Shown in pieces: positions 6,497 through 54,749 of a DNA stretch of 64,000 nucleotides (position 1 is the stretch's first letter; every line of letters begins with the position of its first letter). Source of the DNA: Flavobacterium sp. WV_118_3 (GTDB lineage Bacteria; Bacteroidota; Bacteroidia; Flavobacteriales; Flavobacteriaceae); assembly GCF_039778605.1 (NCBI RefSeq), contig NZ_CP156060.1:1116001-1180000 (forward strand). The letters are read 5' to 3'. Position numbers and translations under genes: made by a program. Under the pieces are notes generated by a model, which did no database searches, was not told the DNA's origin, and saw nothing but the letters and a program-made list of their open reading frames with translations.

Positions 6497-6560
6497 GGTG
6501 TTTTGTTTTGTTTGTTCGACAAAGTTCCGCCAATAAACAAGGCGACACCAATGATAAATA

Positions 6561-6575
6561 GTTATAAGTTATAAC
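6561..6575. promoter_or_regulatory. Palindromic candidate LysR operator
   Basis: GTTATAA-G-TTATAAC, a 7-1-7 inverted repeat. It overlaps the last codons of the LysR gene and lies 65 bp before the yeiH-type start. AT-rich dyads of this size suit LysR-type boxes. Binding is inferred only. Confidence 0.4.
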
Positions 6576-7467
6576 TTTTGGTTATACTGTTTTGTGCAAA
6601 TCGTACAAACATTTCCGGGATTTTTTCCAACTGTCCCTGTAAATGCGTAAAGTAAAATACCCGTTTAATATCGATGTCATCGATATCAATGACTTTAAAT
6701 TGTCCCTCTATGATTTCTTTGCTAACCGCCGAAATCGAGAGCAAAGCCATACAGTTGGAATTGGCCAGAAACGATTTTATACTTTCGGTACTGCCAAGTT
6801 GCATAATCAGGTTTAATCCGTTTATTGGAATATCGTGTTTGCGAAGTTCATGCGCGATAATTTCCAGACTACCGGAACCGTTTTCCCGTAACACCAACGG
6901 AATACTTAGAAGTTCTTCTTTGCCGATTCGGTCTTTGTTGGCCAATTCCTGCGAAGTATGTACTACAGCTACAATTTCGTCTTTTAGAAAAGGTACGTAT
7001 TTTAAATCCTTGTTTTTGGATTTCCCCTCCACAATTCCCAGTACTACTTTTTTCTGTAATACGGCTTCTTCGATTTTTTCGGTATTGGCATCGAGTAGTG
7101 AAATTCGGATATCCGGAAAATGTTTGTAAAAATTTGCCAGTATCGGAGGAAGAATATAATGACTCAGTGTGGTGCTGGCACCCAATAACAATTCGCCGGC
7201 CTGTTTTTCTTTTAGCAATCCCAGATCGTATTGGATTTTCCGGTAGATTTCAAAAATCGATTCCGCATGTCGGTATAGGATTTCCCCGGCTTCTGTAAGG
7301 GTTATTTTATTTCCCCGGCGTTCAAATAAACGGATATCCAGTTCGGTTTCCAGTTCTTTGATATTTTTAGTGACTGCCGGTTGGGTGATGCATAAGACGT
7401 CCGCCGCTTTGGTAAAGCTTAAGTGACTGGCGACAGTGTGGAATACTTTTAGGCGTATATCAGACAT
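6562..7467 (-). CDS. LysR family regulator (YeiE/CysB-like)
   Basis: 301 aa. The N-terminal winged HTH (residues 1-60) has LSFTKAADVLCITQPAVTKNIKELETELDIRLFER. The effector-binding domain starts about residue 90 with ELLLGASTTLSHYILPPIL and continues with typical type-2 periplasmic-binding features such as IVEGKSKNKDL and LVLRENGSGS. YeiE-type regulators control yeiH-like exporters and sulfite/sulfate stress. The neighbouring exporter supports that role, but the ligand is not known. Confidence 0.87.
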   Translation of the reverse strand: MSDIRLKVFHTVASHLSFTKAADVLCITQPAVTKNIKELETELDIRLFERRGNKITLTEAGEILYRHAESIFEIYRKIQYDLGLLKEKQAGELLLGASTTLSHYILPPILANFYKHFPDIRISLLDANTEKIEEAVLQKKVVLGIVEGKSKNKDLKYVPFLKDEIVAVVHTSQELANKDRIGKEELLSIPLVLRENGSGSLEIIAHELRKHDIPINGLNLIMQLGSTESIKSFLANSNCMALLSISAVSKEIIEGQFKVIDIDDIDIKRVFYFTHLQGQLEKIPEMFVRFAQNSITKSYNL

Positions 7468-20769: not shown

Positions 20770-22137
20770 TTAAACATGCGGTAATTCGACCGTAAAAGTA
20801 CTTCCTTCGTTGGGTTCGGAGACTACGGATATTGTACCGTTATGTAGCGTAATGATCTTTTGAGTGAGCGAAAGTCCAATTCCGTTTCCGTTGGCAAATC
20901 CTTTGTTATCGCCTCTGAAAAATGGGGTGAAAATATTCGGCAGATCGTCTGGAGCAATTCCGATTCCGTTATCCTGAAAACGAATAATCGTTTTGTCTTT
21001 AAAGTAAGTTATCGCTATCGTGCTTTCTTTGGCTTCCGAAAATTTACAGCCGTTTTCGATCAGATTCATAAAAGCGACTTTTAACAAATATTCATTTCCT
21101 TTTACCGAAATAAAATCGTCGTCCTCAATTTCTTTTTCAAAGATAAGGTTCACTTTAAATTCGGGTTGGTTATGTAGTACATCGTTTCGGGCATCCAATA
21201 ACACTTCGTCCAATCGGATTTCTTTCTGGACAATTTCGGTCTGATCGTAATTGGCTTTGGCCAAATCCAACAAACTATTGGACAAACGAACCAGTTTCTG
21301 AGCGTCGTTAATCGCATTGTCAATCGATTTCCGGTATTCGTCGTTGGAACGCGGGTTTCCGGTGGATAATTGTAATTCGGTGAGCATAGCCGTTAGCGGT
21401 GTCCGCAATTCGTGCGAAATATTCGATACAAAATCTTTTTGCGCGTCAAATGACTTTTCCAGTCGGTCGAGCATTTGGTTAAAAGTGGTCGCCAGTTCGG
21501 CAATTTCGTCTTTGTTTTTGGGAAGTTGTACCCGCAAATCCAAATTGGTAGCCGATATTTCTTTTACATTGGCCACAATATTGGTCATAGGCAACATGGC
21601 TTTACGCGAAAAAATACGCCCCATGATATAAATAAAAATTATCGACGACAGGAATACGATCAGGATATTCCTTTTGGCGATATAGGTTTTATGATATCCA
21701 TTCAAATCGTAGGCCGCGGCCATGATAATATAATTTTTTCCGTCATGTTCGTATCGCATACCAATGGCCTGCCATTTGTCAAGGTAAAAACGGATTTCTT
21801 TTTTCTTTAAAACCGAATTCAGCATTTTGGTATTCTCTTTTACCACGTCAATATTCGCATCATCATGGTATAAAAGTTTGTAATGCTCATCATAAATTGC
21901 GACTTCGACCTCGTTTATGATGGAACGGTTATTGGTATAAATTGCCTGAAGGGTTTTGGTATCGATTTTGGCTTTGAAAAACAGATTGGCTTTGGTGAGT
22001 GCTTCTTTATGAAGCGTTCGGTAAAACGTATTTTCCCGGTTTTTTTCGCTTGTGACATAGATAATCACCGCAAAAACCAATAATATGGATGCTGTTAGAA
22101 AAGTAAACAATAAACTCAGTCGGTTTTGTATGGTCAT
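20770..22137 (-). CDS. Two-component sensor histidine kinase
   Basis: 455 aa. TM1 is about residues 8-28, followed by a periplasmic sensor of about 130 residues, TM2 about 155-176, then HAMP, HisKA with SHELRTPLTAML (His242) and HATPase with NLIENGCKFSE, DNGIGI and GNGIGLSL. It starts directly after the response regulator stop with no gap (RR TAG, then ATG). The stimulus is unknown; similar kinase/regulator pairs in this phylum respond to metals or envelope stress. Confidence 0.9.
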   Translation of the reverse strand: MTIQNRLSLLFTFLTASILLVFAVIIYVTSEKNRENTFYRTLHKEALTKANLFFKAKIDTKTLQAIYTNNRSIINEVEVAIYDEHYKLLYHDDANIDVVKENTKMLNSVLKKKEIRFYLDKWQAIGMRYEHDGKNYIIMAAAYDLNGYHKTYIAKRNILIVFLSSIIFIYIMGRIFSRKAMLPMTNIVANVKEISATNLDLRVQLPKNKDEIAELATTFNQMLDRLEKSFDAQKDFVSNISHELRTPLTAMLTELQLSTGNPRSNDEYRKSIDNAINDAQKLVRLSNSLLDLAKANYDQTEIVQKEIRLDEVLLDARNDVLHNQPEFKVNLIFEKEIEDDDFISVKGNEYLLKVAFMNLIENGCKFSEAKESTIAITYFKDKTIIRFQDNGIGIAPDDLPNIFTPFFRGDNKGFANGNGIGLSLTQKIITLHNGTISVVSEPNEGSTFTVELPHV

Positions 22138-22827
22138 CTACGTATCGCTTTCCAGTTTTAAAATAAAGCCCATTCCGGATTTGGTATGGATTAGTTTGTT
22201 GTCGAAATCCTTGTCTATTTTTTTTCGGAGGTAATTGATATAGACGTCAATAAAATTTGTCCCGGTGTCAAAATGGGTGTTCCAAACTTTTTCAGCGATT
22301 TCGGTACGACTCAGCACCCGTTCGGCATGCTGCATCATATATTCCAGGAGTTTGAATTCCTTTGGTGTCAGACTGATTTCTTTACCGACACGTCGAATGG
22401 TTTTGGTGTTGTAATTGAGTTCCAGATCCTGATAGGTAAGTTTATCGGTATAATTGGTCGCCGAATTACTTCGTTTGAGTAACGCCCGGATACGTACCAA
22501 TAATTCCCGGAAATCAAATGGTTTCACCAGATAATCGTCGGCACCGGCATCAAATCCATCCACTTTATCGTCGGTTGTACCTAAAGCTGTCAGCATGATA
22601 ATCGGGAGACCGGGATTGCTTTTGCGTATCGAAAGACACAAATCGATTCCGCTGATTTTCGGTAAAATAATATCGGTAATTACCAAATCGTAGGTATTGT
22701 ATAGGGAAAGCTTTTTTCCCATTTCGCCATCGTAGGCGAGTTGGGTATCAAAACCTTCTTCATCCAATCCTCTTTTGAGTAATTCGGCTACGCGGGTATC
22801 GTCTTCAACAATTAAAATTTTCGGCAT
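22138..22827 (-). CDS. OmpR/PhoB family response regulator
   Basis: 229 aa. The receiver domain has acidic residues EDD near the start, phospho-acceptor Asp52 in VITDIILPKISG, and Lys in DYLVKPFDFREL. The C-terminal winged helix has ISLTPKEFKLLEYMMQHAERVLSRTEIAEKVW and VDVYINYLRKKID. Cognate to the kinase encoded immediately downstream. Confidence 0.92.
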   Translation of the reverse strand: MPKILIVEDDTRVAELLKRGLDEEGFDTQLAYDGEMGKKLSLYNTYDLVITDIILPKISGIDLCLSIRKSNPGLPIIMLTALGTTDDKVDGFDAGADDYLVKPFDFRELLVRIRALLKRSNSATNYTDKLTYQDLELNYNTKTIRRVGKEISLTPKEFKLLEYMMQHAERVLSRTEIAEKVWNTHFDTGTNFIDVYINYLRKKIDKDFDNKLIHTKSGMGFILKLESDT

Positions 22828-28566: not shown

Positions 28567-31500
28567 TTATTTATTCGTTTTGATTACTCTCTTCGTCGTT
28601 TTACCTTGATCGGTTACGATGTTAAAGATATACACTCCTGCTTCAAGTTGGTCAACATTGATGCTGCTTTCCTCATTATGTAAGTTCTGGCGAATTACCT
28701 GACGTCCGTTCATATCGAACACCGTTACACTTGCATTAGAGTAGTTATTCATCATTTTAATGGTTACTGTTGTAACTGCCGGGTTAGGGAAGATACTTAC
28801 AGAAGCTGCGTTGAAATCGGCAACACCCATTGGAGGTGCAACAACCACAATTGCAGTAGCAGTACTACAGTTTGTGCTGTTAGCAATCTCACAGATTGAA
28901 TACGTTAATGTATAGGTTCCCTGAGCTGAAGCAGCCGGTACGTTTACATTTCCGTTTGCATCGATAGTAACTCCGGTTAATCCACCATTGTTAACTAAAG
29001 TGATTGTGATAGCATTGTCGTTAACTGGCGCACCACCTAAAAGGTCATTCGCGGTAACATCTCCTGCAACACCACCTGTAGCATTTACTACCGGATTCGC
29101 AGAGAAGTCATCGTTAACCGCAGTGATCACAAGGTTGTTTACAGTTAATGTTCCTGCATTTGAGTTCACAGAAGCACAAGTACCGTTAGCAACAACAGCT
29201 CGGAACTGGTGTCCGTTGTAAGAAGCCGGTACTCCTGTTAATGTTAATGTATTGGTTGTAGCACCAGAAACAACAGGGTTTGTACCACCATTACTAATGT
29301 TATTCCAAGTTGTACCATTAGTACTCATTTGCCACTGATAAGAAGTAGCATTTGTAGCTGTTACTGTAAACGTAGCATTTCCACCAGCAGTGATCGTACT
29401 GTTGGTAGGTTGAGCCGTTACGGTAGTAGCACCTGGTTCCGTAATTGTGAACGACTCTGTAGTTGTACATGCATTCGCATCGGTAACCGTTACAGTATAA
29501 GTACCCGCAGCTAAACCAGTAGCGGTAGCAGCAGTACCTCCTGTTGGAGCCCAAACGTAAGTGTAAGCACCTGTTCCACCCGTTACGGCAACAGTAGCCG
29601 AACCGTTAGTTCCACCGTTACAAGCCACGTTAGTTTGAGCCGAAGCTGTAGCCACTAAAGCAGTTGGTTGTGTAATTGTAAATGACTGCGTTGTAGAACA
29701 TGCATTCGCATCGGTAACCGTAACAGTATACGTACCCGCAGCTAAACCAGTAGCGGTAGCAGCAGTACCTCCTGTTGGAGCCCATGAATATGTATATGTT
29801 CCAGTTCCACCTGTTACAGCAACAGTAGCCGAACCGTTAGATCCACCGTTACAAGCCACGTTAGTTTGAGCCGAAGCTGTAGCCACTAAAGCAGTTGGTT
29901 GTGTAATTGTAAATGACTGTGTAGTTGTACATGCATTCGCATCGGTAACCGTTACAGTATAAGTACCCGCAGCTAAACCAGTAGCGGTAGCAGCAGTTCC
30001 ACCTGTTGGCGCCCAAACGTAAGTATAAGTACCTGTTCCACCTGTTACAGCAACAGTAGCCGAACCGTTAGATCCACCGTTACAAGCCACGTTAGTTTGA
30101 GCCGAAGCTGTAGCCACTAAAGCAGTTGGTTGTGTAATTGTAAATGACTGCGTTGTAGAACATGCATTCGCATCGGTAACCGTAACAGTGTAAGTACCCG
30201 CAGCTAAACCAGTAGCGGTAGCAGCAGTTCCACCTGTTGGCGCCCAAACGTAAGTGTAAGCACCTGTTCCACCCGTTACAGCAACAGTAGCCGAACCGTT
30301 AGTTCCACCGTTACAAGCCACGTTAGTTTGAGCCGAAGCTGTAGCCACTAAAGCAGTTGGTTGTGTAATTGTAAATGACTGCGTTGTAGAACATGCATTC
30401 GCATCGGTAACCGTAACAGTGTAAGTACCCGCAGCTAAACCAGTAGCGGTAGCAGCAGTACCTCCTGTAGGAGCCCAAACGTAAGTGTAAGCACCTGTTC
30501 CACCTGTTACAGCAACAGTAGCCGAACCGTTAGTTCCACCGTTACAAGCCACGTTAGTTTGAGCCGAAGCTGTAGCCACTAAAGCAGTTGGTTGTGTAAT
30601 CGTGAATGAACGTGTAGTAGAACATGCGTTAGCATCGGTAACCGTTACAGTATAAGTACCCGCAGCTAAACCAGTAGCGGTAGCAGCAGTACCTCCTGTA
30701 GGAGCCCAAGCATATGTATATGGTCCAGTTCCACCTGTTACAGCAACAGTAGCCGAACCGTTAGTTCCACCATTACAAGCTACGTTAGTTTGAGCCGAAG
30801 CTGTAGCCACTAAAGCAGTTGGTTGTGTAATCGTGAATGAACGTGTAGTAGAACATGCGTTAGCATCGGTAACCGTAACAGTGTAAGTACCCGCAGCTAA
30901 ACCAGTAGCGGTAGCAGCAGTACCTCCTGTAGGAGCCCAAACGTAAGTGTAAGCACCTGTTCCACCTGTTACAGCAACAGTAGCCGAACCGTTAGTTCCA
31001 CCGTTACAAGCCACGTTAGTTTGAGCCGAAGCTGTAGCCACTAAAGCAGTTGGTTGTGTAATCGTGAATGAACGTGTAGTAGAACATGCGTTAGCATCGG
31101 TAACCGTTACAGTATAAGTACCCGCAGCTAAACCAGTAGCGGTAGCAGCAGTACCTCCTGTAGGAGCCCAAGCATATGTATATGGTCCAACACCACCTGT
31201 TACAGCAACCGTAGCCGAACCGTTAGTTCCACCGTTACAAGCTACGTTAGTTTGAGCCGAAGCTGTAGCTACTAAAGCACTAGGCTGAGTAATCGTGATT
31301 GATCTTGTTATAAAACAAGTATTAGCATCTGTAATGGTTACAGTGTAAGTACCGGCAACTAAACCAGTAGCAGTAGCAGCTGTACCCCCTGATGGAGCCC
31401 AAGAATACGTGTAAGGTCCTGTTCCACCTGCCGGAACTACAGTAGCCGTACCGTTAGAACCACCGTTACAAGAAACGTTAGTTGAAGCAGTTGTAGCAGT

Positions 31501-34500
31501 GATAGCGGTAGGTTGTGTAATAGTTACCGATCTTGTAGCTGTACAAGCGTTAGCATCTGTAACTGTAACCGTATATACACCCACAGCTAAACCAGTAGCG
31601 GTTGCAGCTGTACCTCCTGATGGAGCCCATGAATACGTGTAAGGTCCTGTTCCACCTGCCGGAACTACAGTAGCAGTACCATTTGATCCACCGTTACAAG
31701 AAACACTTGTGGAAGAAGCAGTAGTCGTTAAAACTGTAGGCTGGTTGATAGTAATAGATCTAGTGATTGAACATGCATTTGAATCCGTAATAGTTACAGT
31801 GTAAGTACCGGCAACTAAACCAGTAGCAGTAGCAGCTGTACCTCCCGATGGAGCCCATGAATAAGTATACGGTCCAACACCACCTGAAACAACAACTGAA
31901 GCTGTACCATTCGATCCACCGTTACAAGAAACGCTAGTCGAAGCAGTAGTAGCTGTAATAGCAGTAGGCTGCGTGATGGTGATTGATCTTGTAGTAGTAC
32001 AAGCGTTAGCATCTGTAATCGTAACCGTATATACACCCACAGCTAAACCAGTAGCGGTAGCAGCTGTACCTCCTGACGGAGCCCATGAATACGTGTATGG
32101 CGCAACACCACCAGCCGGAACTACAGAAGCTGTTCCGTTAGAACCACCGTTACAAGAAACGTTAGTCGAAGCAGTAGTCACGGTAATAGCAGTTGGTTGT
32201 GTAATAGTAACTGATCTAGTGATAGAACAAGCGTTCGCATCCGTAATCGTAACGGTATATACACCCACAGCTAAACCAGTAGCGGTAGCAGCTGTACCTC
32301 CTGTAGGAGCCCATGAATAGGTATAAGGTCCAACACCACCTGCAGCAACAACAGTAGCTGTTCCGTTCGATCCACCGTTACAAGAAACGTTGGTAGATGA
32401 AGTAGTGGCAGTTATTGCATTTGGTGCTACGATGGTAACTGTTTGTGTTTTAGTACAAGCGTTAGCATCGGTTACAGTACATGTATAAGTACCTGCGGCT
32501 AAACCAGTAGCGGTAGCAGCTGTACCTCCTGTAGGAGCCCATGAATAGGTATAACCAGGAACACCTCCTGTTACGCTAACAGTAGCCGAACCATTAGTTC
32601 CTCCGTTACAAGCAACATTCGTTTGTGAAGATATAGTAACAGCTAATGCCGTTGGCTGGTTGATTGTAAAGTTTCTTGTTGCTGTACAACCATTGTTATC
32701 GGTGATTGTACAAGTATAAGTACCGGCTGCAAGTCCTGTAGCCATTGAAGCTGTACCTCCAGACGGAGCCCATGAATAGGTATATGGAGCAGTTCCTCCA
32801 GTTACGTTAACACTAGCGATACCATTAGAACCTCCGTTACAGGCAAGATCTGTTCTGGAAGTGGTAATGGCCATAGCGGTTGGTTGTGTAATGGTAACTG
32901 ATCTTGTAGTAGTACAAGCATTAGCATCTGTAATCGTACAGGTATATACACCCACAGCTAAACCAGTAGCGGTAGCTGCTGTACCTCCTGTAGGAGCCCA
33001 TGAGTAAGTATAAGGTCCTGTACCACCTGAAGGTGTTACAGTAGCTGTACCGTTGGCACCGCCATTACAAGAAACAGCTGTGGTAGAACCAGAAGCTGTT
33101 AAAGCAGCCGGTTGTGTGATTGTAAATGTTCTTGTAATACTACATGCATTCGCATCCGTAATGGTACAGGTATAAGTACCTGCAACTAAACCAGAAGCTG
33201 TTGCAGCGGTCCCTCCTGAAGGCGCCCATGAATAGGTATATCCCGGAGTACCACCTGAAACGTTAACCGTTGCAGTACCGTTAGTACCACCATTACAAGC
33301 AACATTTGTAGAAGAAGTAGTAGCCGTTAAAGCCGTTGGTTGCGTGATTGTGAATGATCTTGTTAAAGTACAAGCATTCGCATCGGTAACCGTAACGGTA
33401 TAAACTCCTACCGCTAAACCAGAAGCTGTTGCTGCTGTTCCACCAGATGGAGCCCATGAATAGGTATAAGGAGCAGTTCCTCCAGAAACGTTAATCGTAG
33501 CAACACCATTTGATCCACCGTTACAAGCAACACTTGTAGTAGATGCTGTAGAAGTTAGAGCTGTCGGTTGTGTGATGGTAACTGATCTTGTAATACTACA
33601 TGCATTCGCATCCGTAATGGTACAAGTATAAACCCCTACAGCTAAACCGCTAGCTGTTGCCGCTGTTCCCCCTGATGGAGCCCATGAATACGTATACGGT
33701 CCGGTTCCTCCTGAAGGAACTACTGTTGCAGTTCCGTTAGAACCCCCATTACAGGAAACGGAAGTAAAGGAACTGGTAGCAGTAAAAGTAGCCGGTTGTG
33801 TAATAGTAAAGGTTTGAGTTTTCGTACAAGCATTTGCATCGGTTACGGTACAGGTATAGGTACCTGCTGCTAAACCAGTAGCTGTTGCAGCTGTTCCACC
33901 AGATGGAGCCCATGAATAGGTATAACCAGGAACACCTCCGGACACAGCTACAGTAGCCGAACCGTTTGATCCTCCGTTACAGGCAATATTCGTTTGTGAA
34001 GATGCAGTAACTACTAATGCCGTTGGCTGGCTGATTGTAAAGTTTCTTGTTGCCGTACATGAATTTGAATCGGTGATGGTACAAGTGTATGTACCAGCAG
34101 CTAAACCTGTGGCCATAGAAGCAGTACCTCCTGATGGAGCCCATGAATACGTATAAGGAGGAACACCTCCGGTTACGTTAACACTAGCGATACCGTTTGA
34201 ACCTCCGTTACAGGTAAGATCTGTTCTTGAAGTGGTAACCGCCATAGCTGTTGGTTGTGTAATCGTGAAACCACGAGTGATCGTACATGCATTAGCATCG
34301 GTAACGGTAACTGTATAGTTTCCTACCGATAAACCGGTTGCTGTTGCAGCTGTACCTCCCGATGGAGCCCATGAATAGGTATAAGGAGGAGTACCTCCTG
34401 AAGTAACTATTGTAGCGGTACCATTACCACCACCATTACAGCTCACATTCGTTTTTGAAGTCACTGCCGACATCGCTGTTGGCTGTGTGATTGTTACACT

Positions 34501-35736
34501 ACGAGTAATAAAAGTTCCTTCGTTATCAGTAATCGTACAAGTGTAAACGCCAACTGGTAAACCAGTAGCAGTAGCATTTGTACCTCCTGAAGGAGCCCAT
34601 GAATAGGTATATGGTGTTACACCACCGGAAGCTACTACTGTAGCAGTACCGTTACCACCACCGTTACAAGAAACAGTAGTGAATGATGATGTGGCACCTA
34701 AAGCGGTACCAGTTGTAAAAGAAAGGTCATTTCCATAAGCTGTTCCGTTCGAGTTCGTAGCGAAAGCTCTTACGTGAATCGTAGTAGCTGCTGGTAACGC
34801 TGCTACTACAGAGCTAAAAACTCCGGTACCAGATCCAATAGTTACTTTATTGTCGGATGTAGTTGGGTTTCCACCCAATGCCCAAACAATTCCTCTTTCA
34901 GTAACAGTTGCACCACCGTCGGCTGTTACATTACCTCCTAAAGTAGCTTTTACAGCTCCAACATTGGTTGCTGCAGTTGTAACAACCGTTGGGTTTACAA
35001 TTACAGTACAGTTAACGTTTGGCGTGGCATAACCTGCTGGTGTAATACCAAGCGTATTGGATCCGTTATGTGCCCAGTTAGCAGCCGTGTTAATACTGGC
35101 TCTTAATGCCGCAGCTGTTCCGGTTAAGGTTCCTGTATATTTGTTATTAGCAGATTCAGGACCCGGAGCCGGGAAAAGCGAAATACAGTTTACACCATTG
35201 GTAAGTCCTGTAGGAACAATACTTTCGGCTGTACCGGCTTCGTTTGAAGCATTCCAGGTTGTAACCGGGTCGTAGTTCGTATTGTTGTAGTCACCGTGAA
35301 CACCAGCAATAAAGATAGGGTTTGCTGGCGCTACACCGCTAGTACTTTGGTAAGCCAAAATCTGGTCACCAGCCGATAGGTTAAAGTTCGAATTTAGAGC
35401 GATAGTTACCCCGGAAGTACCGGTTACGGTAAAAGAATCTGGCCCAGTTTCGATTATCGAAATAATCGTTCCGCAAGGCACCGTAGAAGGGATAACCCAT
35501 CGTAAGTGGGTTTCCGTATTTGTGGCCCAGCCTGTTGCTGTCCAACCCTGTTCGGAAAAGTAAATCGTTTCTCCGGCAGGAAGGGGTTTGAGCGCAATAA
35601 ATGAAAATCCATCGACTGTCCCGAAATCATAGCCGATAAAGGCGATGTCTCCAGGGCCGAGGGTTTGCGCTTTGGTACTCTGCTGTACAAAAAATGTACA
35701 GAGAAATACGAGGGTTGCGAGTAATCTCTGCTTCAT
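28567..35736 (-). CDS. Giant SprB-repeat surface adhesin with T9SS sorting domain (2389 aa)
   Basis: The signal peptide (MKQRLLATLVFLCTFF...KAQ) leads into a 250-residue N-terminal domain beginning PGDIAFIGYDFGTVDG, then a fibronectin-like segment. 23 SprB repeats of about 77 aa follow, each with CNGG, YTYSWAP and GxYTVTVTDANAC. Next come an Ig-like segment (SYQWQMSTNGTTW), another beta domain and a type IX secretion tail (SIFPNPAVTTVTIKM, ending RVIKTNK). SprB-type proteins are exported by T9SS and moved along the surface by the gliding motor. It starts 25 bp after the periplasmic-binding-like gene, likely the same transcript. Confidence 0.92.
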   Translation of the reverse strand: MKQRLLATLVFLCTFFVQQSTKAQTLGPGDIAFIGYDFGTVDGFSFIALKPLPAGETIYFSEQGWTATGWATNTETHLRWVIPSTVPCGTIISIIETGPDSFTVTGTSGVTIALNSNFNLSAGDQILAYQSTSGVAPANPIFIAGVHGDYNNTNYDPVTTWNASNEAGTAESIVPTGLTNGVNCISLFPAPGPESANNKYTGTLTGTAAALRASINTAANWAHNGSNTLGITPAGYATPNVNCTVIVNPTVVTTAATNVGAVKATLGGNVTADGGATVTERGIVWALGGNPTTSDNKVTIGSGTGVFSSVVAALPAATTIHVRAFATNSNGTAYGNDLSFTTGTALGATSSFTTVSCNGGGNGTATVVASGGVTPYTYSWAPSGGTNATATGLPVGVYTCTITDNEGTFITRSVTITQPTAMSAVTSKTNVSCNGGGNGTATIVTSGGTPPYTYSWAPSGGTAATATGLSVGNYTVTVTDANACTITRGFTITQPTAMAVTTSRTDLTCNGGSNGIASVNVTGGVPPYTYSWAPSGGTASMATGLAAGTYTCTITDSNSCTATRNFTISQPTALVVTASSQTNIACNGGSNGSATVAVSGGVPGYTYSWAPSGGTAATATGLAAGTYTCTVTDANACTKTQTFTITQPATFTATSSFTSVSCNGGSNGTATVVPSGGTGPYTYSWAPSGGTAATASGLAVGVYTCTITDANACSITRSVTITQPTALTSTASTTSVACNGGSNGVATINVSGGTAPYTYSWAPSGGTAATASGLAVGVYTVTVTDANACTLTRSFTITQPTALTATTSSTNVACNGGTNGTATVNVSGGTPGYTYSWAPSGGTAATASGLVAGTYTCTITDANACSITRTFTITQPAALTASGSTTAVSCNGGANGTATVTPSGGTGPYTYSWAPTGGTAATATGLAVGVYTCTITDANACTTTRSVTITQPTAMAITTSRTDLACNGGSNGIASVNVTGGTAPYTYSWAPSGGTASMATGLAAGTYTCTITDNNGCTATRNFTINQPTALAVTISSQTNVACNGGTNGSATVSVTGGVPGYTYSWAPTGGTAATATGLAAGTYTCTVTDANACTKTQTVTIVAPNAITATTSSTNVSCNGGSNGTATVVAAGGVGPYTYSWAPTGGTAATATGLAVGVYTVTITDANACSITRSVTITQPTAITVTTASTNVSCNGGSNGTASVVPAGGVAPYTYSWAPSGGTAATATGLAVGVYTVTITDANACTTTRSITITQPTAITATTASTSVSCNGGSNGTASVVVSGGVGPYTYSWAPSGGTAATATGLVAGTYTVTITDSNACSITRSITINQPTVLTTTASSTSVSCNGGSNGTATVVPAGGTGPYTYSWAPSGGTAATATGLAVGVYTVTVTDANACTATRSVTITQPTAITATTASTNVSCNGGSNGTATVVPAGGTGPYTYSWAPSGGTAATATGLVAGTYTVTITDANTCFITRSITITQPSALVATASAQTNVACNGGTNGSATVAVTGGVGPYTYAWAPTGGTAATATGLAAGTYTVTVTDANACSTTRSFTITQPTALVATASAQTNVACNGGTNGSATVAVTGGTGAYTYVWAPTGGTAATATGLAAGTYTVTVTDANACSTTRSFTITQPTALVATASAQTNVACNGGTNGSATVAVTGGTGPYTYAWAPTGGTAATATGLAAGTYTVTVTDANACSTTRSFTITQPTALVATASAQTNVACNGGTNGSATVAVTGGTGAYTYVWAPTGGTAATATGLAAGTYTVTVTDANACSTTQSFTITQPTALVATASAQTNVACNGGTNGSATVAVTGGTGAYTYVWAPTGGTAATATGLAAGTYTVTVTDANACSTTQSFTITQPTALVATASAQTNVACNGGSNGSATVAVTGGTGTYTYVWAPTGGTAATATGLAAGTYTVTVTDANACTTTQSFTITQPTALVATASAQTNVACNGGSNGSATVAVTGGTGTYTYSWAPTGGTAATATGLAAGTYTVTVTDANACSTTQSFTITQPTALVATASAQTNVACNGGTNGSATVAVTGGTGAYTYVWAPTGGTAATATGLAAGTYTVTVTDANACTTTESFTITEPGATTVTAQPTNSTITAGGNATFTVTATNATSYQWQMSTNGTTWNNISNGGTNPVVSGATTNTLTLTGVPASYNGHQFRAVVANGTCASVNSNAGTLTVNNLVITAVNDDFSANPVVNATGGVAGDVTANDLLGGAPVNDNAITITLVNNGGLTGVTIDANGNVNVPAASAQGTYTLTYSICEIANSTNCSTATAIVVVAPPMGVADFNAASVSIFPNPAVTTVTIKMMNNYSNASVTVFDMNGRQVIRQNLHNEESSINVDQLEAGVYIFNIVTDQGKTTKRVIKTNK
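29440..34710 (-). repeat. 23 tandem SprB repeats within the adhesin gene (about 231-bp unit)
   Basis: The eight repeats nearest the C-terminus (about 29440-31290) are almost identical and exactly phased at 231 bp. The fifteen toward the N-terminus are diverged. Repeats 3-4 and 9-10 (counted from the N-terminus) are particularly alike (TDLxCNGGSNGIASVNVTGG, then SSQTNxACNGG), which points to an older six-unit duplication. Confidence 0.9.
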
Positions 35737-45039: not shown

Positions 45040-45121
45040 TGAAAAAGGAATAGGATAATTATTGGAGTACTGAAATAGTCAACTTTACAGGAAGAACTTT
45101 ATGTTTATAAAACGCCCGATT

Positions 45122-45370
45122 ATGAAAAATTCAACACCAAGCCGCAACCGCAACAAACAAAAAAAACTCCCGGTACGCCGGGTTTCGCTATACGGAAAAG
45201 CCTTTCCACGCGCCTACAGTCGGTATGTATATTATCCCGAAATCCGATTGGCCGGAAAATGGCTTCAAGAGGCCGGGTTTAAAACGACAATGAAAGTAAA
45301 AATAAGCTGCGAATATCGGAAACTGATTATAACGGTAGATACCCGAAAAGACCCTTCGCTTTATCGCTAG
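45122..45370 (+). CDS. SymE-like toxin (82 aa)
   Basis: The basic N-terminus MKNSTPSRNRNKQKK is followed by the SymE-type core, YPEIRLAGKWLQEAGFKTTMKVKISCEYRKLIITVD. This is the same order (P-x-L-x-G-x-WL-x-AGF then short beta strands, AbrB-like fold) as E. coli SymE, an SOS-induced RNA-targeting or nucleoid-condensing toxin. An in-frame Met at 45101 is an alternative start. In E. coli the antisense RNA SymR represses it; here an XRE gene is adjacent and may take that role. It lies about 100 bp from the CRISPR leader. Confidence 0.75.
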   Translation: MKNSTPSRNRNKQKKLPVRRVSLYGKAFPRAYSRYVYYPEIRLAGKWLQEAGFKTTMKVKISCEYRKLIITVDTRKDPSLYR

Positions 45371-45460: not shown

Positions 45461-45566
45461 GAAATAAAAAAATGCCTTAATATACTTTTTATATCAGGCA
45501 TTTTTTATTGTTTTTTTATTTTGTGGTTTATATCAAAACCCATGTATTTACAAGGTTTCCAAAGAG
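45461..45566. promoter_or_regulatory. CRISPR array 1 leader with terminator hairpin
   Basis: AAAAAAATGCCT (45466-45477) pairs with AGGCATTTTTT (45496-45506), a bidirectional terminator. A conserved TTTTGTGGTTTAT stretch and a second hairpin (AAACC...GGTTT with inner TGTA/TACA, 45535-45558) follow, ending just before the first repeat. Nearly the same sequence precedes array 2, so this is the adaptation leader of both arrays. Confidence 0.75.
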
Positions 45567-46728
45567 GTTGGAATTGTATTTGATAAATCTACAAAAATTT
45601 GAAAGGAATTCACAACACTTTGGCTCACCTTAAAAGAAGGTGTTTTGTTGGAATTGTATTTGATAAATCTACAAAAATTTGAAAGGAATTCACAACTAAC
45701 AAGCGAAAATGCTCCAGAATCCGTTAGTTGGAATTGTATTTGATAAATCTACAAAAATTTGAAAGGAATTCACAACTGGTGATAGTCCATAGTTTAATAA
45801 TCAAAAGTTGGAATTGTATTTGATAAATCTACAAAAATTTGAAAGGAATTCACAACCATTAGAAGTTCATTTTGTCTCTTATTGATGTTGGAATTGTATT
45901 TGATAAATCTACAAAAATTTGAAAGGAATTCACAACGATAAATACTACCATTTAATAGCTAATAAAGTTGGAATTGTATTTGATAAATCTACAAAAATTT
46001 GAAAGGAATTCACAACTTCAGAAGCTCCAAGTGTCCAGTCAAATCTGTTGGAATTGTATTTGATAAATCTACAAAAATTTGAAAGGAATTCACAACATTG
46101 GATTCGACGATCTTTATTAAGTCTAGGTTGGAATTGTATTTGATAAATCTACAAAAATTTGAAAGGAATTCACAACTAGTTACTTAGCTTTGATTACACA
46201 GCAAATGTTGGAATTGTATTTGATAAATCTACAAAAATTTGAAAGGAATTCACAACAGAAGTTCGTAATGATAGATAATGAGGTAGGTTGGAATTGTATT
46301 TGATAAATCTACAAAAATTTGAAAGGAATTCACAACGGATAGGGCTAAAGAAGCCGGAGGAGCCGGGTTGGAATTGTATTTGATAAATCTACAAAAATTT
46401 GAAAGGAATTCACAACTACTCCTTGCTCACAAGCACCGGTAACTGTGTTGGAATTGTATTTGATAAATCTACAAAAATTTGAAAGGAATTCACAACGGAT
46501 ATGAATTGTTTAAGGATTTTGATTCTGTTGGAATTGTATTTGATAAATCTACAAAAATTTGAAAGGAATTCACAACATCTATCTGTTGGCGAAAAACAAC
46601 AAATATGTTGGAATTGTATTTGATAAATCTACAAAAATTTGAAAGGAATTCACAACAGCATTAAACACCTTATATAGTTCGACCAAGTTGGAATTGTATT
46701 TGATAAATCTACAAAAATTTGAAAGGAA
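45567..46728 (-). CRISPR. CRISPR array 1: 15 repeats, 14 spacers, type II-C
   Basis: The 50-nt repeat starts at 45567 and recurs every 80 bp. All 14 spacers are exactly 30 nt. On the crRNA strand (minus) the repeat begins GTTGTGAATTCCTTTCAAAT and ends TACAATTCCAAC. The last repeat (46687-46728) keeps 42 nt and lacks the final eight, marking the old end. crRNA direction is taken as minus because the tracrRNA anti-repeat pairs with that strand. The repeat is longer than the usual 36 nt of type II. Confidence 0.97.
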
Positions 46729-46762
46729 GTATCAAAGGTTTAAGGTTGTAATTGATATAAAT

Positions 46763-46850
46763 AAAAAAGCCCCGAAGATAGTCGAGGCGCTAAATGTTTT
46801 CACAACGGAATAATCCTTATTGTGAATTCCTTTCAAATACAAATTAAATA
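46763..46850 (-). ncRNA. tracrRNA (type II-C)
   Basis: On the minus strand the anti-repeat ATTTGAAAGGAATTCACAA (46820-46838) is complementary to the first part of the crRNA repeat over 19 nt. It is followed by a nexus hairpin (GGATTATTCC), a GTTGTGAAAAC linker and a terminator stem GCCTCGA / TCGGGGC with TTTTTT (46763-46788). This is the standard tracrRNA order. The 5' end is approximate. It lies between array 1 and cas9, transcribed away from cas9. Confidence 0.88.
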
Positions 46851-46931
46851 CTTTTTATCAAATAAACATTATGTATAACCGTAAAATTTGAAAGAATTAT
46901 TTTCTTAATTTTCAAATCAAAAGCATCTTTT

Positions 46932-49900
46932 ATGGAAAAACATATAATAGGATTAGATTTAGGAACCAATTCTGTTGGTTGGAGTTTAATACAACAACAT
47001 TTTGATAATAAATATGGTCGTATTCTCGGAATGGGTACGCGTATTATACCCATGTCACAAGATATAATTAGTGATTTTGGAAAAGGAAAGTCGATTTCTC
47101 AAACAGCAGAACGAACAGCCTATCGCTCTACAAGAACAGTAAGAGAACGGCATCTTTTAAGAAGAGAACGTTTGCATCGGGTTTTACATCTTTTAGGCTT
47201 TTTACCGAAACATTATGATGAGCAAATTGATTTCAGAAAACGTTTCGGAAAGTTTATTAGTGGTTGTGAACCTAAATTGGTATATAATCAAAATGAGTTT
47301 TTATTTAAAGATTCCTTCCTTGAAATGCTGGCAGATTTTAAACAACATCAGCCCGAATTTTTAAAAGATAAAAAAGGAAACGATTGTTTAATTCCTTACG
47401 ATTGGACTATTTATTTTTTAAGAAAGAAAGCATTAACACAAAAAATAGCAAGAGAAGAACTGGCTTGGATTTTATTAAACTTTAACCAAAAGCGTGGGTA
47501 TTATCAGCTTCGAGGGGAAGAAGAAGAAGAAAATTCAAATAAATCGATCGTCTTTCATTCTTTACGGGTGGTAGATGTTGTAGCCGATGAAGAAAAAAAT
47601 AAAAAAGGAGAAACCTGGTATACTCTTAATCTGGAAAATGGCTGGACATATCGACGATCGAGTAAAACGGAATTGTACGAGTGGAAAGATAAAGTTCGCG
47701 ATTTTATTGTTACAACAGATCTTAATGATGATGGAACTGAAAAACGAGATAAAGACGGAAATGTAAAACGCAGTTTCCGGGCACCAGGTTCCGACGATTG
47801 GACCTTGATGAAAAAAAAGACAGAGCAAGATATTGAGCAATCTGCTAAAACTGTTGGAGAATTTATATATGATCATTTACTATTAAATCCGAAACAAAAA
47901 ATCAAAGGAAAATTAGTTCGTACTATCGAACGAAAGTTCTATAAAGAGGAACTGGAGAAGATTTTAAAAAACCAACAAATATTCCATACAGAATTACAAG
48001 ATACTTTTTTATTAGAAAATTGTATAGAGGAATTGTACCGTCATAATAAAACACAGCAACAACAACTTTTATCAAAAGACTTTGTGCATTTGTTTGTAAA
48101 GGATATTATTTTTTATCAGCGACCATTACGCAGTCAGAAATCCAATATTAGTAATTGTAGTTTAGAATTTAGAACGACTAAAAACGAAAAAGGTGAAAGT
48201 ATAGTACGACCGTTAAAAGTTATCGCAAAATCAAATCCTTATTACCAGGAATTCAGACTTTTACAATGGATTCATAATCTAGCCATTTATCGAAAGGAAG
48301 ATGATGCAAATGTATCGGACGATTTTTTTAAAACTATAGAAAACAAGGATGAGCTGTTCGATTTTCTAAACCATAAAAAAGAAATTGAACAAAAGGTTTT
48401 GATTCGATTTCTGTTGGAGAAGAAAGGTTTTAAAGGCAGAGCATTAACAACCGAAATAGAAAAATACCGTTGGAATTATGTGATGGATAAAAAATATCCA
48501 TGTAACGAGACAAAAGCAATGTTGTATTCTTGCTTGAGTAAAGTTGATAATGTACCGGCTGATTTTTTAAGTTTCCATCAGGAATTGAATTTATGGCATC
48601 TTATTTATTCAGTAACCGATAAAGAAGAATACAACAAAGCATTAAAAACATTTGCTCGCAAACATCAATTAAACGAAGAATCATTTTTTGAAGCTTTCCG
48701 GAAGTTTCCACCATTTAAAAGTGATTACGGTAGTTTTTCTCAAAAAGCAATTTTAAAATTACTTCCGTTAATGCGTTTTGGGAAAAATTGGGGTTGGAAT
48801 CAAATTAATATAAAATCCCAAGATCGTATCGCTAAAATTATCACAGGAGAATATGATGAAGAAATAACAGATCGGGTTCGTGAAAAAGCGCAACACTTAA
48901 CAACGGAAACGGACTTTCAGCAATTACCGCTTTGGCTGGCACAATATGTAGTATACGGACGTCATTCTGAAGCAACTAATACCGATAAATGGTACTCTGT
49001 AAAAGACCTGGAAAACTATATCGCCTCTTTTAAACAACATTCTTTACGTAATCCTATTGTGGAGCAAGTTGTTTTGGAAACATTACGGGTAGTTCGTGAT
49101 ATTTGGATACAATATGGTAAAGGAGCTAAAGATTTCTTTAATGAAATTCATATAGAATTGGGACGTGATCTGAAAAATACTGCCGAAGAACGGGAGCGCA
49201 TCACGACTATGGTTACCGAAAATGAGAATACGAATCTACGCATTAAAGCGTTATTGGCTGAAATGGCTTTGGATAAAGCCGTTGAAAATGCTCGGCCGTA
49301 TTCTCCTTCACAACAGGAAATCCTACGGATTTATGAAGATGGCGTTTTAAATTCCGGTATGGATATAGAAGAAGATATTTTAAAAATAAGTAAAGCAGCA
49401 CAACCTTCCAGTAGCGATTTAAAGCGATATAAGCTCTGGCTGGAACAAAAATATCGTTCTCCTTATACCGGACAAATTATTCCGTTAAACAAATTATTTA
49501 CGCCGGAATATGAGATAGAACATATCATTCCGCAAAGCATCTATTTTGACGATAGTTTTAGTAACAAAATTATTTGTGAGGCAGCTGTTAATAAGCTTAA
49601 AGATAATACTATCGGACTGGCGTTTATTAAAAAATTCCATGGACAGATTGTGGATTGTGGAATGGGAAAACAAGTGAAAATATTCGAAGTGTCAGGCTAC
49701 GAGGAATTTGTAAACCAAAATTATGCTAAAAACAAAGCGAAACGAAACAAATTGCTAATGGAAGATATACCGGAAAAAATGATAGAACGTCAGCTAAATG
49801 ATACACGTTATATCAGTAAATATATTTCCGGAATTCTGTCAAATATTGTTCGTTCAGAATCTAACGATGACGGTGTTAATTCTAAAAACCTGATTTCTGG

Positions 49901-51293
49901 AAATGGTAAAATTACAACAGCTTTAAAACAGGATTGGGGATTAAATGATATTTGGAATGATTTGATTTTACCACGATTTGAACGGATGAATGAACTAACC
50001 AATTCATCCGATTTTACATCATGGAATGAAAATTATCAGAAGTATTTGCCAACCGTTCCGATTAACTTGTCAAAAAGTTTTTCTAAAAAAAGAATTGACC
50101 ATAGCCACCACGCGTTGGATGCTTTAATTATTGCCTGTGCAACAAGAGACCATATAAACTTTATGAATAACGAGCATGCGTTAAAGAATGGAAAAACAAA
50201 AGAGGAGAAGCAGAAATTTAGATTTGATTTACGAGCCAAACTGTGTGATAAAAAATATAATAATGATTCGACCGAAAACTATCAATGGGTATTTAAAAAA
50301 CCATGGGAGACTTTTACAACCGATAGTAAAAATGAATTGGAAAAAATGGTGGTAAGTTTTAAACAAAATCTTAGGGTCATCAATAAAGCCACCAATTATT
50401 ATGAAAAATGGGTAGATAAAAACGGAGTAAAGGTAAAAGAAATAGTGAAGCAGGAAGATATTAATTGGGCAATCCGAAAACCATTGCATAGAGAAACCGT
50501 TTCCGGGAAAATAAGTTTAGATCGTATAAAAGTAGGGAATGGGAAAATTTTAACAGCTACACGAAAATCGTTGGATACCTCTTTTAATGAAAACAGTATA
50601 AAAACAATAACGGATACTGGAATTCAAAAAATATTGAGTAACTATCTTAAGAGTAAAAACAACAATCCAGAGATTGCCTTTTCACCTGAAGGAATCGAGG
50701 AAATGAATCAAAATATACGGGATTATAATGATGGTAGATTACATCAACCTATTTTAAAAGTAAGGGTATTCGAACAAGGAAGTAAGTTTCAATTAGGAGA
50801 AACGGGGAATAGAACAAAGAAATATGTAGAAGCCGCAAAAGGAACCAATTTGTTTTTTGCGGTTTACGAGGATAAAAGTGGTAAAAGAAATTATGAGACT
50901 ATCGCCTTAAATCTGGTTATTGAGAGACAAAAACAAGGATTATCTTCTGCTCCTGAAGTAAATGAAAAAGGACACCGACTTCTATTTGTACTATCTCCTA
51001 ATGATTTGGTGTATGTTCCTATGGAGGAAGAAGATATTTCCGGAATTGAGTTTAATAATCTGGATAGAGAACAAGCGAGTAGAATATATAAAATGGTAAG
51101 TAGTACTGGTAGTAAATGTCATTTTATTCATTCAAGAGTTGCTACGTTAATTAAAAACTATGATTCCGAAAGCAAGATCGGTGAGTTTGGTAGTTTAAAT
51201 AAATTGGAAATAACAATGGATAATTCTGTTCGTATAAAAGAAAAGTGCATCAAATTGAAAGTAGATCGATTAGGGAATATTTCTAAAGCTTAA
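46932..51293 (+). CDS. cas9: CRISPR-associated endonuclease Cas9 (type II-C, 1453 aa)
   Basis: RNA-guided nuclease. RuvC-I is IIGLDLGTNSVGW (Asp9). The Arg-rich bridge helix is TAYRSTRTVRERHLLRRERLHR. RuvC-II is EIHIELGRD (Glu742). HNH is IEHIIPQSIYFDDSFSNK, with His864 and Asn878/Asn887. RuvC-III is HSHHALDALIIACATRD (His1060, Asp1063). All catalytic residues are intact, so it should be active. The length is in the range of large Bacteroidota II-C Cas9. cas1 begins 3 bp after its stop. Neither csn2 nor cas4 is present, which defines subtype II-C. The start is fixed by the RuvC-I motif at the N-terminus. Confidence 0.98.
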   Translation: MEKHIIGLDLGTNSVGWSLIQQHFDNKYGRILGMGTRIIPMSQDIISDFGKGKSISQTAERTAYRSTRTVRERHLLRRERLHRVLHLLGFLPKHYDEQIDFRKRFGKFISGCEPKLVYNQNEFLFKDSFLEMLADFKQHQPEFLKDKKGNDCLIPYDWTIYFLRKKALTQKIAREELAWILLNFNQKRGYYQLRGEEEEENSNKSIVFHSLRVVDVVADEEKNKKGETWYTLNLENGWTYRRSSKTELYEWKDKVRDFIVTTDLNDDGTEKRDKDGNVKRSFRAPGSDDWTLMKKKTEQDIEQSAKTVGEFIYDHLLLNPKQKIKGKLVRTIERKFYKEELEKILKNQQIFHTELQDTFLLENCIEELYRHNKTQQQQLLSKDFVHLFVKDIIFYQRPLRSQKSNISNCSLEFRTTKNEKGESIVRPLKVIAKSNPYYQEFRLLQWIHNLAIYRKEDDANVSDDFFKTIENKDELFDFLNHKKEIEQKVLIRFLLEKKGFKGRALTTEIEKYRWNYVMDKKYPCNETKAMLYSCLSKVDNVPADFLSFHQELNLWHLIYSVTDKEEYNKALKTFARKHQLNEESFFEAFRKFPPFKSDYGSFSQKAILKLLPLMRFGKNWGWNQINIKSQDRIAKIITGEYDEEITDRVREKAQHLTTETDFQQLPLWLAQYVVYGRHSEATNTDKWYSVKDLENYIASFKQHSLRNPIVEQVVLETLRVVRDIWIQYGKGAKDFFNEIHIELGRDLKNTAEERERITTMVTENENTNLRIKALLAEMALDKAVENARPYSPSQQEILRIYEDGVLNSGMDIEEDILKISKAAQPSSSDLKRYKLWLEQKYRSPYTGQIIPLNKLFTPEYEIEHIIPQSIYFDDSFSNKIICEAAVNKLKDNTIGLAFIKKFHGQIVDCGMGKQVKIFEVSGYEEFVNQNYAKNKAKRNKLLMEDIPEKMIERQLNDTRYISKYISGILSNIVRSESNDDGVNSKNLISGNGKITTALKQDWGLNDIWNDLILPRFERMNELTNSSDFTSWNENYQKYLPTVPINLSKSFSKKRIDHSHHALDALIIACATRDHINFMNNEHALKNGKTKEEKQKFRFDLRAKLCDKKYNNDSTENYQWVFKKPWETFTTDSKNELEKMVVSFKQNLRVINKATNYYEKWVDKNGVKVKEIVKQEDINWAIRKPLHRETVSGKISLDRIKVGNGKILTATRKSLDTSFNENSIKTITDTGIQKILSNYLKSKNNNPEIAFSPEGIEEMNQNIRDYNDGRLHQPILKVRVFEQGSKFQLGETGNRTKKYVEAAKGTNLFFAVYEDKSGKRNYETIALNLVIERQKQGLSSAPEVNEKGHRLLFVLSPNDLVYVPMEEEDISGIEFNNLDREQASRIYKMVSSTGSKCHFIHSRVATLIKNYDSESKIGEFGSLNKLEITMDNSVRIKEKCIKLKVDRLGNISKA

Positions 51294-51296
51294 GTA

Positions 51297-52522
<1,226 letters not shown>

Positions 52523-52524
52523 CA

Positions 52525-52628
52525 GGAATAAAAAAATGCCTTAATATACTTTTATATCAGGCATTTTTTTAATTTTTTTGTTTTGTAGTTTATCCCAAAA
52601 CTCTTGTAAAATCAAGAGTTTTGATGAG
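52525..52628. promoter_or_regulatory. CRISPR array 2 leader, duplicate of the array 1 leader
   Basis: The hairpin AAAAAATGCCT / AGGCATTTTTT (52530-52570) terminates cas2 on the plus strand and crRNA read-through on the minus strand. A conserved TTTTGTAGTTTAT stretch follows, then a 10-bp perfect hairpin AAAACTCTTG / CAAGAGTTTT (52597-52622), six bases before the first repeat. Confidence 0.75.
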
Positions 52629-54594
52629 GTTGTAATTGTACTCGATAAAACTACAAAAATTTGAAAGGAATTCACAACGGTTAGCTATAGTATCGGATAG
52701 ATACAACAGTTGTAATTGTACTCGATAAAACTACAAAAATTTGAAAGGAATTCACAACTATGAAACGCCAATCTTCTCAGCCAGTTGTGTTGTAATTGTA
52801 CTCGATAAAACTACAAAAATTTGAAAGGAATTCACAACGTTGATCCGTTCATTCAAACAACAAGTTATGTTGTAATTGTACTCGATAAAACTACAAAAAT
52901 TTGAAAGGAATTCACAACCATATTCAAGTTCTTGTTTGTCGAATTTTTGTTGTAATTGTACTCGATAAAACTACAAAAATTTGAAAGGAATTCACAACGA
53001 GCCGAAATAATCATCCCTTTCGAATCTGGTTGTAATTGTACTCGATAAAACTACAAAAATTTGAAAGGAATTCACAACGCGTAGTCTTTCGATATATCCA
53101 TCAAGATTGTTGTAATTGTACTCGATAAAACTACAAAAATTTGAAAGGAATTCACAACAGTTCAAAAGCCATAATAAAATCGGACAAAGTTGTAATTGTA
53201 CTCGATAAAACTACAAAAATTTGAAAGGAATTCACAACTGCGACATTGAAGCCATGTTCAATCTTAAGGTTGTAATTGTACTCGATAAAACTACAAAAAT
53301 TTGAAAGGAATTCACAACGTGCGACCGCTGCGATACCTGGCGTGCGCGGTTGTAATTGTACTCGATAAAACTACAAAAATTTGAAAGGAATTCACAACCT
53401 TCGGCTTGTTTACGCGCTTTTTCTTCCGGTTGTAATTGTACTCGATAAAACTACAAAAATTTGAAAGGAATTCACAACGGCAAAAAACTAGCGCTCAAAT
53501 TATAGCTGGTTGTAATTGTACTCGATAAAACTACAAAAATTTGAAAGGAATTCACAACTACTGCAAGCGTATGCGCAACACTGCACGCGTTGTAATTGTA
53601 CTCGATAAAACTACAAAAATTTGAAAGGAATTCACAACTGATTGAACATCCAGAATGTGGAAAAACACGTTGTAATTGTACTCGATAAAACTACAAAAAT
53701 TTGAAAGGAATTCACAACAATCTCTGGCAATTGTTTTAATTTGTCATAGTTGTAATTGTACTCGATAAAACTACAAAAATTTGAAAGGAATTCACAACCT
53801 GTCGGGGTTTCTGTGTTTAATTCTCCGTGTTGTAATTGTACTCGATAAAACTACAAAAATTTGAAAGGAATTCACAACAGCCACATTAAAACCATGTTCA
53901 ATCTTAAGGTTGTAATTGTACTCGATAAAACTACAAAAATTTGAAAGGAATTCACAACTATCTTAGCTGCTATAATTCCGACCGGACTGTTGTAATTGTA
54001 CTCGATAAAACTACAAAAATTTGAAAGGAATTCACAACTCACCTCATTGTTAGCAAACATTAAAGGCAGTTGTAATTGTACTCGATAAAACTACAAAAAT
54101 TTGAAAGGAATTCACAACAGTTTAGGAATTGATTGTGAAGCAGGAAATGTTGTAATTGTACTCGATAAAACTACAAAAATTTGAAAGGAATTCACAACCA
54201 GGCACTACCGGGACACTTGACGAATCAGGTTGTAATTGTACTCGATAAAACTACAAAAATTTGAAAGGAATTCACAACGAATTGCAACAACGTTTAGGCA
54301 GTCTTGCTGTTGTAATTGTACTCGATAAAACTACAAAAATTTGAAAGGAATTCACAACCCTAGCCGCTGAACAGATGGGCTGGGAAAAGTTGTAATTGTA
54401 CTCGATAAAACTACAAAAATTTGAAAGGAATTCACAACGACACGATTGCCAAACAAAAGAAAATTGAAGTTGTAATTGTACTCGATAAAACTACAAAAAT
54501 TTGAAAGGAATTCACAACAAAAATCAGGGTACTGCATATAATCTAAGAGTTGTAATTGTACTCGATAAAACTACAAAAATTTGAAAGGAATTCA
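52629..54594 (-). CRISPR. CRISPR array 2: 25 repeats, 24 spacers, type II-C
   Basis: 50-nt repeats every 80 bp from 52629, all spacers 30 nt. The repeat differs from array 1 at four positions (5, 13, 15 and 22 on the plus strand) and is identical over positions 23-50, which include the tracrRNA-pairing part. The final repeat (54549-54594) lacks the last four bases. Spacers 8 (53239-53268) and 16 (53879-53908) are homologous to each other. Spacer 9 is 22/30 GC, unlike the rest. Confidence 0.97.
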
Positions 54595-54749
54595 TTGCCT
54601 TAATAATTGATAGTTTCTACTTTAAGTGTTTTTTATTTTTACCCACAAAAAAGAAATTTTACTACATTCGTAATTGAAACAATACACTTTGATAGGAGTA
54701 GAAGAGTCTATTATATTCAAAACCAAACCACCAAAAAACACTATAAAAA

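Follow-up and report, generated by a model that had tools for sequence, protein, structure and literature searches.

Two near-identical spacers in a Flavobacterium type II-C CRISPR array suggest repeated acquisition of one protospacer

Flavobacterium sp. WV_118_3 carries a CRISPR-Cas locus (clustered regularly interspaced short palindromic repeats and their associated genes) within the stretch of 64,000 nucleotides (nt) that was analysed here, contig NZ_CP156060.1, positions 1,116,001 to 1,180,000, hereafter the window. Spacers 8 and 16 of array 2 at this locus are nearly identical, and the way in which they differ suggests that one protospacer was taken up twice, from related elements. The features of the locus, in window coordinates, are as follows.

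45467..45566, no strand assigned: leader-like stretch of array 1, a putative leader aligned by MAFFT with its array 2 counterpart
45567..46736, minus strand: CRISPR array 1, 15 repeats of 50 nt, the last degenerate, and 14 spacers of 30 nt
46762..46870 (extent approximate), minus strand: candidate trans-activating CRISPR RNA (tracrRNA), with an anti-repeat at 46838-46820 and a terminator-like stem at 46788-46769
46932..51293, plus strand: cas9 (NCBIfam TIGR01865, 380.6 bits, cut-off 100)
51297..52187, plus strand: cas1, type II (NCBIfam TIGR03639, 302.4 bits, cut-off 120)
52184..52522, plus strand: cas2 (NCBIfam TIGR01573, 76 bits, cut-off 24.5)
52529..52628, no strand assigned: leader-like stretch of array 2, a putative leader resembling the one before array 1 (MAFFT alignment)
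52629..54598, minus strand: CRISPR array 2, 25 repeats of 50 nt and 24 spacers of 30 nt, period 80
53239..53268, minus strand: spacer 8 of array 2, taken as the younger copy; CRISPR RNA (crRNA) strand CTTAAGATTGAACATGGCTTCAATGTCGCA
53879..53908, minus strand: spacer 16 of array 2, taken as the older copy; crRNA strand CTTAAGATTGAACATGGTTTTAATGTGGCT

The cas9, cas1 and cas2 genes form one operon with an array on either side, and the interval between the arrays holds no further open reading frame of at least 80 amino acids on the operon strand. We take the operon to be type II-C, defined as a cas9-cas1-cas2 operon without csn2 or cas4. The repeats of array 2 are identical in 24 of 25 copies, and the last (54549-54598) is degenerate with three changes. 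Across the two arrays and the stretches before them (45467-46736 and 52529-54598), the leader-like sequences are alike and the repeats are related but different.

The anti-repeat lies on the minus strand upstream of cas9 and matches over 19 exact bases (E value 8e-6 in the window); the start of the minus-strand repeat is predicted to form 20 base pairs (bp) with it (-27.1 kcal/mol). Because of this predicted pairing, the crRNA is most likely read from the minus strand, which would place the 3' end of each spacer beside GTTGTGAATTCC. The terminator-like stem is accompanied by a T run, six such sites being found against 5.1 expected by shuffling, and Rfam returned no match at the candidate tracrRNA. 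Spacer 8 is taken as the younger of the pair since in both arrays the leader-like stretch lies to the left and the degenerate repeat to the right. In the portions of the Flavobacterium columnare type II-C reports consulted, the protospacer-adjacent motif (PAM), NNNNNTAAA(A), lies downstream, the crRNA is read toward the variable end of the array, and the PAM ends of the spacers face the leader (PMC5524643, PMC8092290).

Spacers 8 and 16 are identical at 26 of 30 bases, with mismatches at plus-strand positions 1, 4, 10 and 13. In type II systems the PAM sits on the 3' side of the crRNA spacer, so that, with the crRNA read from the minus strand, the four differences would lie 1, 4, 10 and 13 nt from the PAM-side end, and the distal 17 nt carry no mismatch. 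Translated on the minus strand both spacers give LKIEHGFNVA, the changes falling at third positions only, and all four differences thus share one codon phase. A sequence-only reading of the window had drawn attention to this identity, to the synonymous third-position changes and to their distances from the PAM side; recomputation from the sequence returned the same values, and the anti-repeat pairing backs the strand on which those distances are counted. Four random differences would share one codon phase with P=0.023, and four changes among ten third positions would all fall in the five PAM-side ones with P=0.024; both values are modest and were computed after the pair had been seen. The two spacers share register and strand and lie outside any duplicated block. 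Among the 38 spacers of both arrays the pair stands alone, since the runner-up reaches only 14 of 20 aligned bases by the score used.

The same sequence-only reading had placed the shared peptide on the crRNA strand. The tracrRNA-like anti-repeat bears out its choice of crRNA strand, but the coding strand of the target is not settled, because plus-strand frame 2 reads ATLKPCSIL in both spacers and the changes are synonymous there as well. Codon usage over nine codons gave the minus frame 5.0 bits and plus frame 2 0.2 bits by host genes, and 3.5 and 0.4 bits by phage frames. This strand test was dropped: minus frame +1, in which the changes are non-synonymous, reaches 7.6 in the phage table, above both of these, so codon usage fails to decide.

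Related arrays were collected with a Cas1 query, which matched in 116 of 398 genomes of the genus and 78 of 397 of the family, the window's own genome being in both sets. The resulting 178 stretches, from 118 places in the genus and 60 of the 77 in the family, make 179 loci with the window, in 139 of which a script detected 143 arrays holding 4,331 spacers. Three mis-called arrays and lengths outside 26-33 nt account for 18 dropped spacers, leaving 4,313 spacers in 140 arrays. The crRNA strand was set opposite to cas1, upon which the repeats start GTTGTG in 139 of 143 arrays, three of the remaining four being among those dropped. Spacer pairs were then counted with no prefilter, their 3' ends aligned over 29 nt and 23 further spacers shorter than this left out.

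Within loci, 32 of 93,259 pairs differ at one to six of the 29 bases, against 3 of 9,106,646 pairs between loci, and no within-locus pair differs at seven or eight. A further 48 within-locus pairs are exact. Duplicated neighbours accompany 22 of these but none of the 32 pairs that are in register and mismatched, whose members lie 1 to 40 spacers apart. Array duplication was accordingly rejected as the source of the mismatched pairs, which we read as independent acquisitions. Where the two spacers of a pair are unequal in length, they share the crRNA 3' end in four of five mismatched and four of four exact pairs, as expected if the PAM fixes that end. Of 99 same-locus pairs, 80 are in register, 10 are shifted by 1-2 nt, and 9 overlap partly or lie on opposite strands (4 same strand, 5 opposite). 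Opposite-strand spacers matching over 26-29 nt are found at census loci L096 (spacers 4 and 38), L078 (6 and 8) and L088 (13 and 27), which would mean either that a single site was targeted from its two sides or that a spacer was inserted reversed. The arrays of L034 and L055 contain neighbouring exact duplicate spacers in runs that resemble block duplications.

The positions of the differences were examined in 31 in-register clusters from 24 loci, one of the 32 pairs being dropped as the second pair of a cluster, with P values obtained by simulation. Over all clusters, the 6 nt nearest the PAM hold 33 of 84 differences against 16.9 expected (P 5e-5, the lowest value that 20,000 simulations can give); leaving out the window pair, the count is 31 of 80 (expected 16.1, P 2e-4). 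Counted in bins of five nt from the PAM side, the differences number 27, 16, 14, 9, 10 and 8. At least one difference lies in the last 6 nt in 24 of 31 clusters (expected 13.4), and the mean position lies on the PAM side in 25 of these clusters and in 21 of the 24 loci. The enrichment is steepest in clusters with a single difference, 10 of 11 of which have it in the last 6 nt (expected 2.2). Codon structure is seen as well: in 7 of 20 multi-difference clusters every difference falls in the same phase (expected 1.95, P 8e-4), and the modal phase holds 57 of 73 differences (expected 41.9, P 5e-5). In 11 of these 20 clusters, the window's included, at least one open frame reads alike in both spacers, a count given without a chance expectation.

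The sources of the window pair were sought in host, phage and virome collections. The sequence-only reading had looked to such a search for hits to one gene of related flavophages with a common PAM; it yielded no gene, PAM or flavophage for either spacer. In their own genome spacers 8 and 16 match only themselves, and at three or fewer mismatches the only match among the 397 family genomes is the window's own. IMG/VR holds no match to the strict peptide LKIEHGFNVA; looser patterns gave one match for KIEHGFNV, two for the opposite-strand peptide, two for IEHGFNVA (one already counted), three for the shared 17-mer and 13 for KIEHGFN (one already counted). Contigs from GTDB gave four matches for KIEHGFNV, one of them inside a long helicase-like protein, and none of the inspected pattern matches in the two collections exceeds 23 of 30 bases to spacer 8 or 16. 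Against INPHARED, no record covers 80% of spacer 8, and the whole arrays reach best E values of 0.2 and 0.3. Spacer 16 alone finds two records of one phage, Shewanella phage 1/44, at 23 of 26 bases and E 0.6, the longest INPHARED match. It falls in a ParB-like gene (L218:614-1396), in frame on the crRNA strand, and reads LYIEDGFNVR there; because an E value of this size is expected by chance and the final residue is not the same, we keep this gene as a lead only and not as a credible protospacer. A scan of the viral_contigs collection for relatives of the ParB-like protein returned only Shewanella phage 1/44 again, and the protein's PHROG family has matches in 145 of 150 genus genomes, most of which, judged by length, look like chromosomal ParB genes; this decides nothing.

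Spacers of other census arrays do match flavophages. In Flavobacterium phage FCV-1, spacer 8 of L186 has a match of 26 of 30 bases and spacer 54 of L036 one of 27 of 30; in phage 6H the figures are 25 and 24 of 30, respectively. By coordinates, all four sites fall in one annotated gene per phage, 5888-7021 in FCV-1 and 21602-22387 in 6H. Reversed spacers, used as a control, reach 24 of 30 a few times and come within five mismatches once, so that the match of L036 to 6H is weak by itself. The four differences between the L186 spacer and FCV-1 share one codon phase. One protospacer can thus occur in diverged form in two flavophages, as is proposed for the window pair. All 4,313 spacers together find 118 places within seven mismatches in the two phages, against 59 for reversed spacers, and 14 within five mismatches, against 1 reversed; no clear common PAM motif emerges among these matches. 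They were not used as a neutral control, as the phages may have escaped too. In INPHARED, the L052 array finds tape-measure matches in Lactococcus phages (best E 3e-3), and the L125 array finds none.

The explanation that we favour, with somewhat better than even confidence, is that a homologous protospacer was acquired again, independently, from a related element, the second spacer probably being kept because changes in the seed defeat the older one. The type II-C adaptation machinery would have taken spacer 16 and later spacer 8 from one 30-bp protospacer, delimited by its PAM, in each of two mobile elements that were related and most likely phages; these would have shared a conserved protein while its codons drifted. 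A common PAM, setting the crRNA 3' end, would account for the identical register. With the differences on the PAM side, spacer 16 would guide cutting of the second element poorly, and spacer 8 would restore immunity and so probably be kept. The phage origin, the common PAM, the lost targeting by spacer 16 and the selection for spacer 8 are parts of this account that we infer. Four of ten third positions have changed and no residue has, so the sources look like diverged relatives rather than a parent and its escape mutant. Re-sampling of PAM sites by chance may be enough for a second spacer to enter; to judge by the PAM-side bias, such a spacer is retained mainly once the first works poorly. 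Of what the sequence-only reading had proposed, independent acquisition gains from the 32 comparable pairs, their lack of duplicated neighbours and their codon periodicity, but its derivation from the same gene of related flavophages is still inferred; for its alternative, re-sampling after seed escape, two diverged lineages fit the pair better than a one-step mutant, and retention through escape has support at the level of the population and is suggestive for this pair.

Several observations weigh against this account. Multi-difference clusters, among which the window pair counts, show a weaker bias: the last 6 nt hold 23 of their 73 differences (expected 14.7, P 0.011), and at 8 nt P rises to 0.054. 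Leaving the window pair out gives 21 of 69 (P 0.021) and, at 8 nt, P 0.075. In clusters such as L085 spacers 48 and 57 and L102 spacers 21 and 27, the difference nearest to the PAM is at least 14 nt away from that side. The eight register-shifted pairs give no clear picture, with 6 of 16 differences within 6 nt (P 0.09), and the three between-locus pairs, too few for a good neutral control, have 4 of 16 in the last 6 nt. The two synonymous frames leave the coding strand ambiguous, and no credible protospacer or PAM was found for spacers 8 and 16 in a search that did not cover plasmids or viromes outside IMG/VR.

Neutral re-sampling would need no escape: a common phage family offers a finite set of PAM sites, and a diverged relative would be sampled at one of them by chance. 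Same-register pairs do recur among related arrays, the window pair taken by itself shows a modest positional bias, and with several hundred PAM sites per phage random choice might, by rough reasoning rather than computation, yield this number of pairs. It predicts an even spread of differences, however, against which the concentration of single differences in the last 6 nt and the PAM-side means in most loci speak, and we consider it rather unlikely. Primed acquisition, in which a partial match of spacer 16 drew Cas9 to a related element and stimulated uptake, has a precedent in a priming-like cluster of new spacers described in the part consulted of an F. columnare type II-C study (PMC8092290); partly overlapping and opposite-strand pairs are few beside those in register, and this route appears improbable. 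Two paralogous or repeated gene copies within a single mobile element could have supplied both spacers, but the PAM-side bias across many loci would then need a separate account, and we regard this as quite improbable. Least credible, and in our view highly improbable, is duplication within the array followed by mutation, or an error of acquisition or assembly at the spacer end. Duplicated blocks do exist among exact pairs, and an end-specific error could still explain single-difference pairs; the mismatched pairs, however, have no duplicated neighbours and lie 1 to 40 spacers apart, nearly all array 2 repeats are identical, and neither mutation nor error would yield codon-phased differences.

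Near-identical spacers as such have been described. In the section consulted on Bifidobacterium lactis, type I-E and I-G arrays contain them within one genome; as here, spacers are repeated, some a few nt apart, and seed differences are used to call them functionally distinct, but the systems are type I and that section tests neither for seed enrichment nor for codon phase or register (PMC12915315). The F. columnare arrays are likewise type II-C and phage protospacers change after spacer uptake; in the portions consulted, however, the four most specific phage changes are non-synonymous and no pair of old and new spacers within an array appears (PMC5524643, PMC8092290). Phages of Streptococcus thermophilus escape by point mutations that alter the seed or the PAM of a targeted protospacer, which resembles our proposal, but the part of that work considered concerns laboratory coevolution and reports no re-uptake of the same protospacer (PMC6452269). 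We found no description of the seed-biased, codon-periodic signature of in-array pairs, which is weak evidence of novelty as only open-licence papers were covered.

Whether type II-C arrays of the Flavobacteriaceae are more generally a readable record of phage escape seems to us evenly balanced. Phages would change the seed and keep the PAM, and the same protospacer would be taken again, leaving both versions side by side in a single array; from the bacterial genome sequence only, the positions of the differences would give the in vivo seed profile of Cas9, strongest over the last 6 nt and fading distally, and codon phase would mark a coding target, all without phage sequence. If the pattern holds, single bacterial genomes log one round after another of the arms race with phages at a given protospacer, and both seed strictness and the share of acquisition driven by escape can be estimated for hosts without sequenced phages.

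Three further observations were made in the window. Spacer 9 of array 2 (53319-53348) has 22 of 30 bases G or C, far above most neighbouring spacers, and may therefore stem from a G+C-rich element. Directly before array 1, 45101-45370 encodes a small protein whose match to the endoribonuclease SymE is weak (27.2 bits, cut-off 132). Finally, a long tandem array with a unit of 231 bases occupies 29434-34680 and is probably the gene of a repetitive surface protein.
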